DNA from: a virus | Length of the DNA: 30,657 bases | Virus record (IMG/VR): IMGVR_UViG_3300022905_000043 | Location: 1-30,657 of that record | Strand: one strand, 5' to 3' | Shown here: positions 10,156-18,588 of the stretch, one piece after another | How the letters are laid out: every line of letters begins with the position of its first letter | How positions within the stretch are numbered: the first letter of the stretch is position 1 | The notes under the pieces: model-generated | The model's input: only the letters and a program-made list of their open reading frames with translations | Database searches by the model: none | Told to the model about the DNA's origin: nothing | Position numbers and translations under genes: made by a program

Positions 10156-10409
10156 GTACAGACAGTCACGACGAAATGATTGAAGCGTTTCAAAACTACT
10201 TTAAGTGGCAAGATCGGTTTGAATATAAAGGAAGTGACGAAGCAGGCATTAAGGCAAGATTTTGGTTATCAGAAATTAGGCGACACGCAAGTATAAGACG
10301 TAACGAAATACAATCAAAGAGGCAAGATCGTAAACAAGCCAGAAAAGGCAAGGTAGGAAGACCATCAAAAGTAAGTAAGAGTGATGGAGAATCCGAGTTG
10401 GACATTTAA
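10152..10409 (+). CDS. small basic protein of unknown function (85 aa)
   Basis: The start overlaps the oxygenase stop (ATGA). The N-terminal half is amphipathic helical with an aromatic motif (FQNYFKWQDRFEYKG). The middle is very rich in Arg, Lys and Gln (EIRRHASIRRNEI, then KRQDRKQARKG), followed by VGRPSK, which resembles an AT-hook core, and an acidic end. A nucleic-acid-binding helper of the recombination operon is plausible. I cannot name a family; I have the impression that similar small proteins occur near gp46 in marine myoviruses, which a search would test. Confidence 0.7.
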   Translation: MSTDSHDEMIEAFQNYFKWQDRFEYKGSDEAGIKARFWLSEIRRHASIRRNEIQSKRQDRKQARKGKVGRPSKVSKSDGESELDI

Positions 10410-10833
10410 TAACAAACCCCTAGATAGTATTCCTGACGAATATGAAGGGTTTGTATACCTAATTACCAACAAGACCAACAATAAAAAATACATAGGCAAA
10501 AAACTAGCCAAGTTTAAAACTACAAAGCCACCACTAAAAGGCAAAAAAAACAAGAGACGCGGATACAAAGAAAGTGATTGGAAGGACTATTGGGGTTCGT
10601 CTGATAAACTTCAAGCAGATGTAGACGCATTAGGGCCACAAAATTTTACTAGAGAAATATTATACCTATGTACAGGCAGGGGCGAAATGTCCTATCTCGA
10701 GGCTAGAGAACAATTTGACCGTAGAGTATTAGAATCAGAAGAGTACTATAACGGAATTATCAACGTTAGAGTAGGCGGTTCAGACAAACTACGGCAGGCA
10801 CTTCTAGAACGACACATCAAAAACAAGGCTTAA
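10384..10833 (+). CDS. GIY-YIG-type endonuclease
   Basis: With the ATG at 10384 (a GTG lies just before) the product is 149 aa. It has the GIY-YIG core near the N-terminus: GFVYLITN at 22-29 and KKYIGKK at 34-40. A basic loop (KGKKNKRRGYKESDW) follows, then YWGSSDKLQADV and a Glu-containing helix (MSYLEAREQF) that would supply the metal-binding glutamate. T4-like phages carry free-standing GIY-YIG (Seg/Hef-like) homing nucleases and repair-type nucleases; size and compactness fit a single catalytic domain without an obvious DNA-binding extension. It overlaps the preceding small gene by 26 bases and ends the recombination operon. Confidence 0.8.
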   Translation: MENPSWTFNNKPLDSIPDEYEGFVYLITNKTNNKKYIGKKLAKFKTTKPPLKGKKNKRRGYKESDWKDYWGSSDKLQADVDALGPQNFTREILYLCTGRGEMSYLEAREQFDRRVLESEEYYNGIINVRVGGSDKLRQALLERHIKNKA

Positions 10834-11346: not shown

Positions 11347-12264
11347 ATGCGTCTTAATGAGATTTTAGTAGAAACAGATCGTCTAGATGAAAAACCCAAG
11401 GGCTTTTTATCCACGATTAAAGACAAGGCACTTGCAAAAGTAGGCAGTGACAAAGCAGCAGGACGTCTTGAACTTGGCAAAGAAGCCAACTTAATGAAAA
11501 AAGAATTTATGAAGTACCTAGGAACTCAAGATAAGGGTGAAGGTGCAACGCCTGATATGGTACTAAACTGGCTTGCTAAAAATGGTTATCCTACAGATAG
11601 TGCTAAAGAAGCAATGAAAAAGGTTACAACAGGTGCTAAAGTAGGCTCCGCTTTAGGAAAAGCGGCGGCTGCGCCGGTTAAGGCCGTTGGCGCTCTTGGC
11701 AAAGGTATTGCAGCAGCAGGAAGTGCAGTTGCAGGTGCCGCTGCTAACCTTAAGAAAACAAATACAGATAATAAAGCAGATGCAACACAACAACCAGCAG
11801 ATGCACAGAAAACTGCGCCTAATACAGACGCTAATACACAGAAAACTGCGCCTCAGGGTGCAACAACTACTGCACCAACTACAACAGAACCTGATCCTAA
11901 AGACGCCGTAAATGTAAAAAGTATGGGCAAAAAGAAAATTGTACCACCAAGTGGTAACAAGGCTGTAGTAAATCAAAGCATAGATTTTTCAAATGTAGGT
12001 ACACTGATGGAAGGACTGTCAAGTGGACAACTTGACGATGTATTTTATGCAGCAGTGCAAGATGCTATTGCACGTGATCAAGGTGGACAAGCAAAAACTT
12101 CTGATACTAGTTTTGACGGACAAGCAGCGTCAGGTGGACTAGCAGGATTTGCTAAAGGTGCAGCCGCAGGTGCTATGGGTGCTAAAATGATTCCAGCGGA
12201 TATACAAAAACAACTAGACACACTTACGCCAAGACAGAAAATTGAACTAGGAAAAATGCTATGA
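11347..12264 (+). CDS. late low-complexity protein, probably virion-associated (305 aa)
   Basis: No named family recognised. The order is: a helical N-terminal domain (residues 1-95, with a WLAKNGYPTDS motif near 78-88), an Ala/Gly-rich stretch (about 100-135) that could be membrane-active or flexible, a Thr/Gln/Asp/Pro low-complexity linker (about 137-190), and a C-terminal domain with LSSGQLDDVF near 224-233 and a closing LTPRQKIELGKML. A late promoter precedes it and its stop overlaps the start of the next gene (ATGA). The next protein shares its PTDS and LS-x-x-Q-I/L-x-x-x-F motifs, so the two are probably partners or diverged relatives. An ejected or internal virion protein is a reasonable guess from the composition, not proven. 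Confidence 0.7.
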   Translation: MRLNEILVETDRLDEKPKGFLSTIKDKALAKVGSDKAAGRLELGKEANLMKKEFMKYLGTQDKGEGATPDMVLNWLAKNGYPTDSAKEAMKKVTTGAKVGSALGKAAAAPVKAVGALGKGIAAAGSAVAGAAANLKKTNTDNKADATQQPADAQKTAPNTDANTQKTAPQGATTTAPTTTEPDPKDAVNVKSMGKKKIVPPSGNKAVVNQSIDFSNVGTLMEGLSSGQLDDVFYAAVQDAIARDQGGQAKTSDTSFDGQAASGGLAGFAKGAAAGAMGAKMIPADIQKQLDTLTPRQKIELGKML

Positions 12265-14738
12265 GACTAAGTCAACTGCAAAAAAGAACACTGATCAGTG
12301 AAGGTTGGAATGATCCTGCATTTACTTTATTTGAACAAAAGACTATTCAGCCTTGGGTAGCAGATGTTGAAAGATACGTTACTGAAGCAGCACTTTCAAA
12401 ACAGCAAATTACACAACTGTTTACCAGCATTGAAAAAGGTGCTGACGAAGCAGGCGACAACAGAACTGGTGTTGGTAAAGCAAAAGACATTGCAGGCTTA
12501 CCTGTTGAAGCACTTAAATGGATTGACGGAAAAATTAATGAACTGGGCAGAGCAGTTCAACAAGCAGGACCTGTTAAAAATGCAGATCAAAAATTTGATG
12601 AACTAAAAACAAAAATTGGTGCAAAAGATTCTAAAGTAGTAAACGCTGTGAAAGCAGTAAGTGATTGGGCAAAAGCCAATCCAGGCAAAGCAAGTATTGC
12701 TGTTGGTATTCTTACAGCAGCGGCTGCTATTGCAGGTGGACCATTAGGCGGTGCTGTTGCAGGTTTCCTTGCTAGAGCAACAAAAGATTTACTACAAGGT
12801 GAAAAACTATCAACAGCAGTTGGTAAGTCAGTTAAAACAGCAGCATATGGTGCTCTTGCTGGCGCAGCAATCCAAGGTATTACAGACAACATTATTGACA
12901 ACATTGCCGCAGGTAGTGAAGCAGAAGCAACTGCAATGATGGATGGTTTTGAAAAAGCCAACTTTACAGCAGCAGTGGACAAAGCAGTAGCAGATGCAGG
13001 ATTTGATTCGGGTGTACTTGACGGTGCTCAGAATTTAAAAATGTCAGGTAACATCAACGGCTTCTATTACAATTATGATTTAACAATGACTCCTGAGCAG
13101 GTAGCACAATATAAAGCATTATCAGATGCAGCAAACAGTGCAAAAACTTTTAGTCCAGAATATTATGAAGCAGCAGGTAAGTTACACGGATTCCTATCAA
13201 CAACACAAGATGCAAATGAAAGTTTAACAGCACTTGCAAAAACAGTTGGTGATATACCAAGAGATGCACTAACAAGTGATCAACTAGAACAAGCGATGGC
13301 TGTGCTTGATAATGCAGATGCAGCAATTGAAAAAATTATGGATGTAGGCGGACCTGTAGCCGCAGCAGCACAGGGTGCTTTACAAACAGTTGATGACAAC
13401 GCTAAGAACAAGCACAATGCAAAACCTGTAAGTCCAGAACAAAAAGCAGAACTAACTGGCGAAGCACCAGCACAAGAAAGCAAAACATACACAGGTACAA
13501 AACTTTCAGAAGGACAGATTTATTTACTGTTCAATAAAATTACACAAGTAAATGATCATATGCTAGAAAACAAGTTGATGTTTGAAAGTGTATTTGATGC
13601 AGTGGCATATTATAATAGACAGACTATTAACGAAGCACCTGGAATTCTTAAAAAAGCAGCAGGCGCTATAGGTAAAGGTGTAGGTGCTATTAAACAAGCA
13701 GGTAGAAACTTAACTGCAAAAGTTACAGCAGACAAACTTATGAAGGCTTGGCAAAAAGCAGGTGAACCTACAGACTCAAACGAAATTGCAGACCAAGTTT
13801 TAAAACCAGCAGGTGTAGCAGATGATGTAATTAAAGGCACTTATGATGCAATGAAGATTGAACTTCCAACTGCACAAGAGCCAGCCGCTGATGCTGCACA
13901 AGATACAAGTGCAACTGACACTGCAACTGATGCAGGTGCTACAGATACAGCAACTGACACAGCGACAGATACAGCAACTGATGCAGGCGCTACAGATACT
14001 GATGCGCCAACTGATGATGCAGCAGCAACAGGGGATACTGCTACAACAAGTGCCACTCCAACAACAGGTGGTACTACATCAAGTAAAGATGAAAGATACT
14101 ATCTACAGAAAAATACAAAAGACGAAACAAAAGTAGACATTATTGATAAGCAAACTAGTAAGCCTATTAAGGATGGCGTAGGACTTGCTCCTGAAAAAGC
14201 AGAACCTATGAGTGATAAAATGAATAAAGAAGCAGGTAAGTTTGAACCACAAGAAGGTGATAAATTTATTATGCAACCAAATGCACAAAATCCAAAAACC
14301 TATGACGTTTTGGACACACAGACAGATCAACCTGTTGAAAAAGGTGAAGCATTACAACCTGGTGAAGCAGAAGAACTACGTGACAAATTGAATACTCAAG
14401 CAACTACTTCAACTACTAGCACTACAACATCAAAAGATGGCGCAACAGACGCGAATACAGCGTCAACAGCAGGTGATCAAGGTGCTGATGCTACAACTAC
14501 ACCACAAGATGCAGAAACACCAGCACAAGACGCTACAAGCACAGATACACAACCAGATGCAGCAGCCAATCCAGGCGAAGAGCCGTACGCTGCTCCTGAT
14601 AGAACACAAGGACAGAAAGATTATAATCCTACCCAAAAGACACCGGCAGCACCGGTTAATATGGGAGATTTGGTTGTGCAGATTAAGAAACTAAAACCAG
14701 AAGTACAAGCAATTATTAAGAAAGAACTTGCCGCTTAG
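12261..14738 (+). CDS. large modular low-complexity protein, probably virion-associated (825 aa)
   Basis: No named family recognised. Visible parts: LSKQQITQLF at residues 45-54; a hydrophobic Ala/Gly segment about 143-175 (SIAVGILTAAAAIAGG) that could cross or insert in a membrane; a second Ala-rich helix near 190-210; a second copy of the first motif (LSEGQIYLLF) near 415-424; a KAWQKAGEPTDS segment near 495; a Thr/Asp/Ala repeat region about 545-605; then two copies of a module of about 50 residues beginning at 610 and 666 (YYLQKNTKDETKVDIID and FIMQPNAQNPKTYDVLD); and a final low-complexity linker before a short helical end. It overlaps the preceding gene by 4 bases and meets the gp26 extension tail to tail, the stop codons overlapping. 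A pilot/ejection role is inference. Confidence 0.7.
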   Translation: MRLSQLQKRTLISEGWNDPAFTLFEQKTIQPWVADVERYVTEAALSKQQITQLFTSIEKGADEAGDNRTGVGKAKDIAGLPVEALKWIDGKINELGRAVQQAGPVKNADQKFDELKTKIGAKDSKVVNAVKAVSDWAKANPGKASIAVGILTAAAAIAGGPLGGAVAGFLARATKDLLQGEKLSTAVGKSVKTAAYGALAGAAIQGITDNIIDNIAAGSEAEATAMMDGFEKANFTAAVDKAVADAGFDSGVLDGAQNLKMSGNINGFYYNYDLTMTPEQVAQYKALSDAANSAKTFSPEYYEAAGKLHGFLSTTQDANESLTALAKTVGDIPRDALTSDQLEQAMAVLDNADAAIEKIMDVGGPVAAAAQGALQTVDDNAKNKHNAKPVSPEQKAELTGEAPAQESKTYTGTKLSEGQIYLLFNKITQVNDHMLENKLMFESVFDAVAYYNRQTINEAPGILKKAAGAIGKGVGAIKQAGRNLTAKVTADKLMKAWQKAGEPTDSNEIADQVLKPAGVADDVIKGTYDAMKIELPTAQEPAADAAQDTSATDTATDAGATDTATDTATDTATDAGATDTDAPTDDAAATGDTATTSATPTTGGTTSSKDERYYLQKNTKDETKVDIIDKQTSKPIKDGVGLAPEKAEPMSDKMNKEAGKFEPQEGDKFIMQPNAQNPKTYDVLDTQTDQPVEKGEALQPGEAEELRDKLNTQATTSTTSTTTSKDGATDANTASTAGDQGADATTTPQDAETPAQDATSTDTQPDAAANPGEEPYAAPDRTQGQKDYNPTQKTPAAPVNMGDLVVQIKKLKPEVQAIIKKELAA
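13923..14000 (+). repeat. in-frame tandem-like repeat coding Thr-Asp-Ala
   Basis: A block starting GCAACTGATGCAGG and running on to GCTACAGATAC occurs at 13923 and again 51 bases later at 13974, with shorter ACAGATACAGCAACTG units between. The spacing is a multiple of three, so the frame is kept. It encodes the flexible Thr/Asp/Ala linker of the 825-aa protein and could expand or shrink by slippage. Confidence 0.7.
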
Positions 14739-14965
14739 AAAAACGGCAGTTTGGTTTTCTTTGTAGTTTCTAAATTATCTTTGATAATATCGTTGATTAT
14801 TTCACGTTCTTCAAAAGACATATTCGCAAGTTCACTGTAAGAAAGACCTCTCATATACCAACACATTTTAAGAAGTTCTCTCTTCAGATTCCTCGCCTCT
14901 TTATCTAGTTTTTCGGCTTCACGCAAAATCTCAGGACGAGAAAGGGTTAAGATTTTGCTCCGAAA
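14735..14965 (-). CDS. -1 frame extension of gp26 (predicted frameshift-only domain)
   Basis: A 76-codon open frame, one base back from gp26, takes over at the slippery site and ends at the TAA at 14735. If used, the fusion would be about 378 aa. The extension is helical: ILREAEKLDKEARNLKRELL, then MCWYMRGLSYSELANMSFEE and a tail ending TKLPFF. It has no credible start of its own: the only upstream ATG in frame (15011-15013) is deep inside gp26 without a good ribosome site, and the first internal ATG would discard the first helix. Its stop overlaps the convergent 825-aa gene's stop by two bases. Short helical extensions of this kind (lambda T, P2 E') bind the tape measure. That comparison is structural analogy, not sequence homology. 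Confidence 0.7.
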   Translation of the reverse strand, partial: FRSKILTLSRPEILREAEKLDKEARNLKRELLKMCWYMRGLSYSELANMSFEEREIINDIIKDNLETTKKTKLPFF

Positions 14966-14971
14966 AAATTT
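14923..14971 (-). promoter_or_regulatory. programmed -1 ribosomal frameshift signal in gp26
   Basis: On the minus strand the gp26 codons read GCA AAT TTT TTC, giving the X-XXY-YYZ heptamer A-AAT-TTT at 14971-14965. Six bases later begins GCAAAATCT (14958-14950), which pairs perfectly with AGATTTTGC (14931-14923). Two more pairs (one U-G, one A-U) extend the stem to 11 bp with a loop of about 14 nt. The gp26 stop codon lies in this hairpin. Heptamer, frame, spacer and stem all match the classical rules for -1 frameshifting. Confidence 0.75.
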
Positions 14972-15870
14972 GCTTGATCCATTGTCAATGCAACATCGAA
15001 CTCGTGTTCGCAATCACCACACTTAACTTTTTTAGTTTTAAGTTCAAGGTTAGCAGCAACACTTTGAAGATGTTCACTAAGGCTTTTAAATATTTCTTTA
15101 TCAGCATTAGTAATAAAGTCTGCTATCATATCTTTATCTGTTACAGTACCTTGCGGTGATGTAATTGAAGCAATACTATGAACAACTACAGCAACAGTCA
15201 TTTCTGTTAATTTAATAAAACTAGAACCAAATCTTTCAAGTTTTTCTTCTTCCGACATTTTTTCGTCATTGATAACTTGGAAAATTCTTTCTTGTTCCAT
15301 TTGTTGTAATTGTTTAGACGTTACTTCTTTGTAGTTGTAAGGCTTCAAAGTAAAGTTAAGGTCGCCGATTGTATACTGTTCTGGATATTGAAATCCACTA
15401 ATTCTTTCTAAATGCTCACTTAGCATATAGTCATAATTTTGTTGTTCTTTACAAGCAGGACACGTTGTTGTAATTTCCATCTTCTCACCGTAAGTTGCAA
15501 TTCTAATAGCAACTAAACAAGCGTCTACATCAAGTGTAGGCATTTTCCACGGTTCTCTGATTGCAGGAATACAACTTTTTATAACTTCTGTTGTTGCTGC
15601 ACCATTCATTAAAGCGTCTGGTGTCTTATACATTAATTCGTCTTTTGCTGTCATTGCGTACACAGCATATTGTCCATCTTCACTTACATCGAGTGTGCCT
15701 TCTTGATACCATTTGCCACCACTTGGCAATCTTAGGTAAACTTTAGGCTGTCTATAATAGCCGGCTAACGGATTGACAGGAGCCGCTGGAGTCGCTGCCT
15801 GTTGGGGTGCGCCACTAGTAGCAGGCTGCCCGGCAATTTCAACCTTTGGCATTTCTGTATTTTCATCCAT
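14947..15870 (-). CDS. 26: gp26-like baseplate hub / tail-assembly protein (zero-frame product)
   Basis: The 307-aa protein resembles the T4-type gp26 baseplate family of marine myoviruses: a Pro/Ala-rich N-terminus, then KVYLRLPSGGKWY (43-55) and MTAKDELMYKTPDALMNG (73-90), which is the family's most recognisable stretch, and an all-helical second half. Two CxxC pairs, C137/C140 and C284/C287, could bind one zinc ion. Its late promoter lies at 15915-15922 with a CGGAG ribosome site. Immediately before its stop there is a slippery AAATTTT and a hairpin that would move some ribosomes into a longer frame (separate entries). That layout, next to a probable tape-measure gene, is how tail-assembly chaperones are organised in other tailed phages. 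The gp26 family call is from memory of the motif. Confidence 0.75.
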   Translation of the reverse strand: MDENTEMPKVEIAGQPATSGAPQQAATPAAPVNPLAGYYRQPKVYLRLPSGGKWYQEGTLDVSEDGQYAVYAMTAKDELMYKTPDALMNGAATTEVIKSCIPAIREPWKMPTLDVDACLVAIRIATYGEKMEITTTCPACKEQQNYDYMLSEHLERISGFQYPEQYTIGDLNFTLKPYNYKEVTSKQLQQMEQERIFQVINDEKMSEEEKLERFGSSFIKLTEMTVAVVVHSIASITSPQGTVTDKDMIADFITNADKEIFKSLSEHLQSVAANLELKTKKVKCGDCEHEFDVALTMDQANFFGAKS

Positions 15871-15948: not shown

Positions 15949-18588
15949 ATGGCCGACGTAACGGGACAAATTGGTAATGAAGAAGTAGTACTTAACAATG
16001 CTGCGACTGAAGCCACTCTAAAGCAACTACTTGCTGCTATGACCGCTATGGCTAAAGCCCAGGGCGTAGAGTTTAAAAATGTAGGACAAGTTGACAAAGA
16101 CCTAGGTAAACTAGGAAAACAGACTGAAAATGCTGTAAGAAGCGGCAGAAAATTCCAAAGATCACAAGAGGGATCAGCAAAATCCGCAGATGGATTAAGT
16201 GAATCTCTTGATGATGCAGCAGAAAGCACAGATAGTTGGGGACAAGGACTAAAAGACAGTCTTAACCTTGTTGGCAAAATGGGCCAACAAGTTCAAAAGG
16301 CTATTGACTTTATTGGAGGTTCATTATCTAGTATCTCCGGAATGGGCGATAGCATTACAAGCGCCACAGATACATTAGGTAACATTCCATTAGTTGGCGA
16401 TGCAATTAAAGGTGTTTATGGACCTGTTGCAGGTGCAGTAGAAACACTACAAACACAGTTCCAGGCAGCAGCATCAGTAGGTGCTAACTTCGGTGGTAAC
16501 ATAGCAGAATTTAGTAAAGCGGCGGGCGGCGCTGGTATGACTATGGAACAGTTTGCCGGAGTAGTACAAAAGAATTCACAAGGCTTAATGTTCCTCGGTG
16601 GTACTACAGCAGACGGTGCTAAACGTTTAGCCGATCTAGGTAAACAAATTAGAAAGTCGCAGGTTGGTGATGAACTAGCAAGATTAGGTTTTAGCACAGT
16701 TGATATTAACAACGGACTTGCAGAATATTCAGGTAGACTTGCAAGAAGTGGCAGAGCTGAACAATTGAGCAATAGGCAACTGATTAATCTTACTGGTCAG
16801 TATATGAAAAACCTAGATGCTGTTTCAAAGTTAACTGGTAAATCTAAAGAAGCTCTACAAGCAGAACAAGACGCTAGAATGGCAGATGCACAGTATCGTA
16901 TAATGCGTTCTAAACTAGATCCTAAACAACAGGCCGAAATGGATAAACTTATGGATTCAATTCCTAAGGCACACCAAGTTGGTATTAAGGAAATTTTAGC
17001 GACAGGTACTGCAACATCTGATGAAGGTGTCAAGGCAATGGCTTTCCTAAGAGAGTCTGGCGGAGCAGCACAAGAAATATTTAAGAAGATTCAAAGCGGT
17101 CAAGGGTTAGAAGAAGGGTTTGCTAGTGAATTTTATGATACCTATGCAGCAGAAGCCAAGAAGTTTGCTGAATCGCCCATTGGTGAAACTGTAGGTAAAT
17201 TTGATGCGTCTATGAATGACTTCTTCGTTGCAGCAGCAGACGTAGCAGAAAGAAATAAAACACTTGGCGAAGTAACAAAACAAATTCAAGACGATCTAGA
17301 TAAAGCAAAAGAAGATATTAAAAAAGGTACTGAAGGCGTAATTGATCCAGCATCAATTAAAACGTTCAAAGAAAATATTGCAGAAGCAAGTACTGCATTT
17401 ACAACAATGCTTGGTAGCGTTGATCTTGCACCGTTAGAAAAAGTATTTAATAAAGCACTAGATGCTGCTGAGAAATATCTAGTGCCAGCTCTTAATATGG
17501 CAGCAAATAATTTTGACAAATTCTTAATAGCAATGGGTGGAGCAAATGCTGCACTTAAAGCACTAGAACTTGCAGCAGGCGCAGCGGCCGCAGCACAAAT
17601 GCTAGGCCTAAGAGGCCGTCCTGGTACAGCCGGTGCAGGTGCAGGAGCAGGTGCTACTGGACAAAAACCAAAACCAGGTGCTACTGGCGGCGGCGGTATG
17701 AAAGGTGCTGCTAAAGGTATTATGAAACGTGCAGGTCCGTTAGGATTATTATACGGATTGTATGAAGGTTATCAGTCGATGAATCAAATCGACCAAGATC
17801 TTGAAGCAGGAAATATCACATCAAACGAAGCAAGTGTAGACAAAGCAGAAGTAACAGGCGGTGTTGTAGGCGGTACTGGCGGAGCAATGGCTGGCGCAGC
17901 AGCAGGTGCTGCATTAGGTTCGGTTGTTCCTGTAGTTGGTACGCTAATAGGTGGTGTAATTGGAGGTGCTGTTGGATATTGGGCAGGATCGTCAGCAGGT
18001 GAAGCAATTGGTGAACAGATTGGAGAAGCACTAGTTGGTCCTGAAGATATTGCAGCCATTGAAGCAAAAATTAAAGCAGAAGAAGAACGTATTAAACGTT
18101 CAGAAGCAGGTGTAAACGAATATTGGGGCAGAGAATCAAAAGGTAGAGAAGAATCACAGAAACAGATTGAGCAATACAAGAAAGATCTAGAATTAATCAA
18201 TAAACGTAATGCCGAAATAAAAGCAGAAGAAGCCAAAGCAGAAGAAAAGAAAAATGAAGTACCTGGTAATCCAGAAGAAAAAACAACAGATACTAATGAT
18301 GCTCAAAAAACACTAGAACAAAAAGCAGAAGAAGAAAAGAAAAAAGCAGAAGCAGAAAAGAAAAAAGCAGAAGAAGAACAGAAAAAGAAAGACGCAGAAG
18401 GTACTACTAACCCAGACGGAACACCAATGAGTAGCAACACTACTCAGAAAACACCAGATCAGTTGTTAGGTGAATTAAATACTAGTATGAATCAACTTGT
18501 CCAATTGGCAACAACACAAACTATGTTAGCCAAAAAACAACTTGGTGTTAGTGGTGAAGCAGTTGGAGATTTATATTCTTCTGTATAA
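15949..18588 (+). CDS. probable tail tape-measure protein (879 aa)
   Basis: Composition and layout suggest a tape measure rather than a direct match to T4 gp29. A helical N-terminal region (1-100, KQLLAAMTAMAKAQ) is followed by Gly/Ala/Ser-rich helices, a long helical middle (about 200-540), a glycine-zipper hydrophobic domain near 630-705 (GAAAGAALGSVVPVVGTLIG and GGVIGGAVGYWAGSSAG), and a Lys/Glu/Ala coiled coil near 750-825 before a short C-terminal domain. Tape measures often carry such hydrophobic segments for membrane penetration on ejection. It is divergently transcribed from the gp26/frameshift gene, the likely chaperone pair. At 879 aa it is longer than T4 gp29 (590 aa), which would imply a longer tail or extra domains. 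Another large internal virion protein is the alternative. Confidence 0.6.
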   Translation: MADVTGQIGNEEVVLNNAATEATLKQLLAAMTAMAKAQGVEFKNVGQVDKDLGKLGKQTENAVRSGRKFQRSQEGSAKSADGLSESLDDAAESTDSWGQGLKDSLNLVGKMGQQVQKAIDFIGGSLSSISGMGDSITSATDTLGNIPLVGDAIKGVYGPVAGAVETLQTQFQAAASVGANFGGNIAEFSKAAGGAGMTMEQFAGVVQKNSQGLMFLGGTTADGAKRLADLGKQIRKSQVGDELARLGFSTVDINNGLAEYSGRLARSGRAEQLSNRQLINLTGQYMKNLDAVSKLTGKSKEALQAEQDARMADAQYRIMRSKLDPKQQAEMDKLMDSIPKAHQVGIKEILATGTATSDEGVKAMAFLRESGGAAQEIFKKIQSGQGLEEGFASEFYDTYAAEAKKFAESPIGETVGKFDASMNDFFVAAADVAERNKTLGEVTKQIQDDLDKAKEDIKKGTEGVIDPASIKTFKENIAEASTAFTTMLGSVDLAPLEKVFNKALDAAEKYLVPALNMAANNFDKFLIAMGGANAALKALELAAGAAAAAQMLGLRGRPGTAGAGAGAGATGQKPKPGATGGGGMKGAAKGIMKRAGPLGLLYGLYEGYQSMNQIDQDLEAGNITSNEASVDKAEVTGGVVGGTGGAMAGAAAGAALGSVVPVVGTLIGGVIGGAVGYWAGSSAGEAIGEQIGEALVGPEDIAAIEAKIKAEEERIKRSEAGVNEYWGRESKGREESQKQIEQYKKDLELINKRNAEIKAEEAKAEEKKNEVPGNPEEKTTDTNDAQKTLEQKAEEEKKKAEAEKKKAEEEQKKKDAEGTTNPDGTPMSSNTTQKTPDQLLGELNTSMNQLVQLATTQTMLAKKQLGVSGEAVGDLYSSV

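Follow-up and report, generated by a model that had tools for sequence, protein, structure and literature searches.

A predicted −1 frameshift extending gp26 and its conservation among T4-like phages

Near the 3' end of a gene 26 homologue on the minus strand of IMG/VR record IMGVR_UViG_3300022905_000043, a T4-like marine phage of which a stretch of 30,657 nt (the window) was analysed, lies what is almost certainly a genuine −1 programmed frameshift signal, judging from the sequences of this gene and of its relatives. The frameshifting gene is very probably a tail assembly chaperone (TAC). The original prediction, of a −1 frameshift extending gp26 in the manner of tail assembly chaperones, is supported by comparative checks in these relatives. 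What is added to the prior literature is an exact, testable slip site, a covarying and putatively stimulatory stem, and an account of why cyanophage 'gp51' is truncated. The result corrects a common annotation error, in which the small open reading frame (ORF) following gp26 is recorded as a 'hypothetical protein' in jumbo phages or as 'gp51' in cyanophages and pelagiphages, the latter two being among the most abundant viruses of the sea; this ORF is most likely one half of a fusion protein. It also unites the two-gene solution of T4 and the frameshift solution in a single family.

Features of the gp26 locus, with the corresponding annotated ORFs of four relatives (positions with an L prefix refer to the loci of those relatives)
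Feature	Position	Strand	Evidence
gp26 homologue, 307 aa, TAC-N (putative short form)	14947..15870	-	PF12322 6.5e-15, phrog_150 2.8e-17, 80 relatives
U_UUU_UUC, conserved candidate slippery heptamer in gp26 frame	14962..14968	-	kept across environmental, jumbo and Kyanoviridae loci
A_AAU_UUU, overlapping heptamer, clade-specific	14965..14971	-	71/80 environmental loci
Predicted stem-loop 3' of slip site, arms 14949-14958 and 14923-14932, 16-nt loop	14923..14958	-	inverted repeat, folding, covariation
Predicted −1 extension (TAC-C domain), 75 aa + stop, RSKILTLSRPEIL...NLETTKKTKLPFF	14735..14962	-	open frame, dN/dS, helical model
Tape-measure-like neighbour, 879 aa, divergent	15949..18588	+	phrog_794 tail length tape measure 6.8e-16
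−1 extension annotated as separate 'gp51 baseplate hub assembly catalyst', P-SSM2	L104:1218-1391
The same, Syn9	L105:1249-1392
The same, S-PM2	L106:1191-1364
The same, HTVC008M	L107:867-1004

The slip site and its conservation

Read on the minus strand in the zero frame, gp26 ends ...GAT CAA GCA AAT TTT TTC GGA GCA AAA TCT TAA, and within GCA AAT TTT TTC there are two overlapping heptamers of the X_XXY_YYZ type. Neither is rare in the window, there being 24 matches to TTTTTTY against 54 expected and 14 to AAATTTT against 25 expected (no excess in either case), so that chance could not be set aside from a single sequence and it is the relatives that decide. The evidence for the slip site is accordingly its position and conservation, not the heptamer count.

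Scanning IMG/VR with the gp26 protein yielded 80 environmental loci, 51-100% identical, which were compared alongside those of eleven isolated jumbo phages (Phosso, Atu_ph07, MIJ3, BF, GAP32, RaK2, SCTP-2, 121Q, Vibrio 2.275, XacN1 and RAS14) and four Kyanoviridae (P-SSM2, S-PM2, Syn9 and HTVC008M). The slip had originally been placed on A_AAU_UUU, which is indeed present in the gp26 frame, but this heptamer is kept in only 71 of the 80 environmental loci, whereas U_UUU_UUC, one codon downstream, is kept in frame in every one; in the nine lacking the former, GAT, ACT or AGT precedes TTT TTC. In all eleven jumbo isolates the heptamer, either U_UUU_UUC or U_UUU_UUU, leads into a −1 extension of 70-80 residues, and all four Kyanoviridae have one or other form in the gp26 frame, again followed by a −1 extension. 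Hence the in-frame heptamer is found at 95 of 95 loci, spanning environmental sequences, jumbo phages whose hosts belong to eleven genera, cyanophages and one pelagiphage.

That the heptamer is kept merely for the two phenylalanines it encodes, with the −1 ORF resulting from decay or a frameshift error in sequencing, has next to no probability. The Phe-Phe is invariant in the gp26 protein alignment, and T4 gp26, which ends GAG TTC TTT GAG with neither a slip site nor a −1 extension, retains it nonetheless. However, the synonymous choice is fixed as TTT TTC throughout the environmental loci, and the preceding base is T whatever the residue: the codon before the pair may be AAT, GAT, ACT, AGT, CAT, CGT, GCT, TAT or TCT, but always ends in T, against a background in which T-ending codons make up 65% of two-fold codons and TTT 77% of Phe codons. 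This invariant T is needed by the predicted heptamer, and not by the protein. The rival is contradicted both by this fixed codon choice and by the selection on the −1 frame described below, and independent assemblies and isolates repeatedly show the same arrangement, which speaks against a sequencing error.

The −1 frame

The gp26 stop codon lies at 14949-14947, and the −1 frame continues beyond it to its own stop at 14737-14735. The frame is thus open, as had been claimed, although it adds 75 residues after the slip and not the 76 codons first given. In every one of the 80 loci it is open to its end or to the contig edge, reaching 68-71 codons beyond the gp26 stop unless the contig edge comes first; extensions in the +1 frame of these loci are short, and their length varies.

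For 41 non-redundant loci, the region 3' of the gp26 stop is free of stops in the −1 frame, where the median dN/dS is 0.12, only a rough figure because many pairs were excluded for synonymous saturation; each of the remaining frames has a value of about 1.6 and about five stops. Diversities of 0.25, 0.155 and 0.513 at the three codon positions agree with these ratios. Purifying selection acts on the −1 frame, which is not what would be expected of a decayed ORF. The −1 C domain (14738-14962, minus strand; alignment A3) is conserved as well as or better than gp26, and ends in a near-invariant NLETTKK..PFF. The extension also meets a convergent 825-aa gene (12261-14738, plus strand) in a four-base overlap of the stop codons, at 14735-14738.

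It is very improbable that the small ORF is simply a gene in its own right, with a start codon from which it is translated through reinitiation or coupling. It is annotated as its own CDS in public records, both in jumbo phages and as the cyanophage 'gp51'; an ATG lies right after the slip in P-SSM2 and S-PM2, and in 25 of the 80 loci a start codon of some kind occurs further up the −1 frame. Yet 55 of the 80 have none as far as the slip, and in 28 no ATG, GTG or TTG is found anywhere from the preceding stop to 60 nt beyond the slip, bearing out the earlier statement that this frame has no credible start of its own. A Shine-Dalgarno-like motif accompanies just two of the 16 candidate starts checked. 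As start codons are missing from so many loci, a separate small gene is unlikely, and for such a gene the invariant in-frame heptamer would be needless.

Under the preferred reading, that of a frameshift, a ribosome on gp26 would arrive at AAU UUU UUC near the 3' end, with tRNA-Phe on UUU in the P site and on UUC in the A site, and a fraction would slip by −1 onto UUU UUU, probably aided by the stem-loop starting 3-6 nt downstream. Translation would then go on in the −1 frame over a further 75 codons, and the rate of slipping would be such as to give much gp26 (the 307 aa TAC-N) and less of a TAC-NC of about 380 aa, which adds a helical C domain.

The stem-loop

A perfect 9-bp stem had been proposed downstream of the heptamers, and the inverted repeat is present as described (14958-14950 with 14931-14923), its arms lying 18 nt apart; the predicted stem-loop overlaps the gp26 stop codon. 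The 6-nt spacer given for AAATTTT is likewise correct (TTCGGA); counted from U_UUU_UUC, the full stem is just 3 nt away, and the part of it that is strictly conserved 6 nt. Slip site and stem together fold better than shuffled sequences (z -2.98; 2/200). An alignment of gp26 loci had been suggested as a check, and in it the heptamer is conserved along with the stem and the open −1 frame, and the stem covaries: across the ten-pair stem, 90.9% of cells are paired in a gapless alignment of 45 non-redundant loci (A1), and 46 cells show double changes, where shuffling gives 12.8 (0/500) and sliding the partner never more than 15. According to the gp26 protein tree, the pair at offsets 14 and 41 has changed from GC to AU or back on four independent occasions, each time on both sides. 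These offsets fall on third bases of Lys and Ile codons and are synonymous in the −1 frame, hence amino acid constraint does not account for the linkage.

RNAalifold recovered just the 5-pair core of the stem from the alignment. Strong stems are found at other positions in P-SSM2 (z -3.6) and S-PM2 (z -6.0), while the stem is weak or absent in Syn9, HTVC008M, BF, GAP32 and the relative L072. The stem therefore cannot be essential everywhere; on these sequences the heptamer is the constant element of the predicted signal and the stem a putative helper at the level of lineages. In L072 (3816-3884) the slip site and the −1 frame are kept and the conserved stem is missing. A second perfect inverted repeat, of 8 bp, joins 14909-14916 to 14960-14967, such that the U run of the slip site pairs with CCGAAAAA; this may be a chance match or an alternative structure.

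Tail assembly chaperones and the T4 gp26/gp51 pair

Phage lambda (gpG/gpGT) and P2 (E/E') make a short and a long chaperone by −1 frameshifting close to the 3' end of the gene for the short form, which adjoins that of the tape measure protein. The window gene resembles these in arrangement, having its predicted −1 signal near the end of the short gene and a tape-measure-like gene adjoining; the 879-aa neighbour was rightly considered tape-measure-like (see table), and an open frame of more than 400 codons is conserved in this divergent position in 79 of the 80 relatives. Unlike in lambda and P2, gp26 is divergent from this gene, and does not lie just upstream of it on the same strand. If the pair works like lambda gpG/gpGT, its N domain would coat the tape measure protein, and tail tube subunits would be recruited by the C domain.

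In protein comparisons, gp26 scores 55.9 bits against PF12322 (cut-off 24.5), which matches at one place in the record, although this is a 30.7-kb fragment and a second, in-frame long copy could lie outside it. The gp26 model (pLDDT 79) resembles other phage gp26 models. No solved structure was matched by sequence, and a Foldseek search of the PDB with this model returned nothing below an E value of 1; the HK97 tail assembly chaperone 2ob9_A aligns with it at a background level (Z 5.6, rmsd 4.8, 101/107 residues, rank 43 among unrelated rows). The C domain is modelled as all-helical (pLDDT 91.9), but by itself gave no convincing sequence match in Pfam, PHROG or the PDB. Its best hit in a fold search of viral models was an uncharacterised phage protein (E 0.004); a 'tape measure chaperone' of phage Moogle, at rank 12 in this search, has an E value of 1.6 and was discounted as evidence.

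The C domains of the window clade and of the jumbo phages are homologous (E 1.5e-21). Weaker links join those of jumbo phages and cyanophages (0.0015) and cyanophages and the T4 gp51 C terminus (1.4e-4), the direct comparison of window and cyanophages giving 0.22; hence the window domain reaches the C terminus of T4 gp51 just through a chain of pairwise matches. Cyanophage gp51 was reported by Sullivan et al. 2010 (PMC3037559) to lack the first ~200 aa and to resemble the C terminus of T4 gp51, and was described as a reduced gene, in a text where frameshifting is not mentioned. From the sequences compared here, the truncated cyanophage 'gp51' is most likely the −1 extension of gp26, and the ORFs annotated as gp51 in P-SSM2, Syn9, S-PM2 and HTVC008M are most likely the C-terminal part of the frameshift product.

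T4 itself has two genes, 26 and 51, in place of the frameshift signal of the window gene, with the N and C domains of gp51 in a single frame. To judge from sequence, this is what the arrangement would look like if a second gene had replaced frameshifting. Vladimirov and colleagues are said to have found frameshifting conserved in several T4-like groups.

The original prediction held that no frameshift had been described in a T4-type tail gene, which does not stand: Vladimirov, Gautam & Davidson 2022 (Virology 566:9-15, doi 10.1016/j.virol.2021.11.003) is cited in PMC10885494 and PMC12846349 as having identified the tail assembly chaperones of T4-like phages, and in the latter for poly-T frameshift signals in their TAC-N genes. 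The mechanism is thus known in kind. As stated in PMC10885494, some T4-like phages have one short and one long gene in place of frameshifting. A parallel in another family is the TAC locus of phage Adele (Vandenendeviridae/Andersonviridae), which according to PMC12846349 also has a conserved −1 extension misannotated as a separate gene. Its poly-T motif at the end of TAC-N, GTTTTT, differs from U_UUU_UUC, and the available sections of PMC12846349 mention no covarying stem.

It is unlikely, if less so than the rivals above, that the frameshift is real and its product pair serves baseplate hub assembly, rather than chaperoning of the tape measure. Phrog_150 and the T4 records label gp26 as baseplate hub and gp51 as hub assembly, and since hub and tape measure jointly initiate the tail the roles may overlap. 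However, a short and a long product made by frameshifting beside a tape measure gene form the pattern of tail assembly chaperones, to which the T4-like proteins were assigned in the citations of Vladimirov et al. 2022 given above. With the chaperone role as the preferred reading, we lean slightly towards a scheme in which the stem-loop would be a lineage-specific stimulator, kept by covariation over both frames, that tunes the ratio of short to long product and with it tail assembly; −1 frameshifting on U_UUU_UUY would be ancestral in the gp26 family, and the T4 26/51 pair a later duplication replacing it.

Elsewhere in the window, the 825-aa protein convergent with the −1 extension gave no convincing match in Pfam or PHROG, and contains a long low-complexity stretch rich in Thr, Asp and Ala. 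A SegE-like GIY-YIG endonuclease (10381-10833, plus strand; PF19835, 3.8e-36) is found among the structural genes, and its best PHROG, 447, carries the label 'NAD synthetase', which is apparently wrong.
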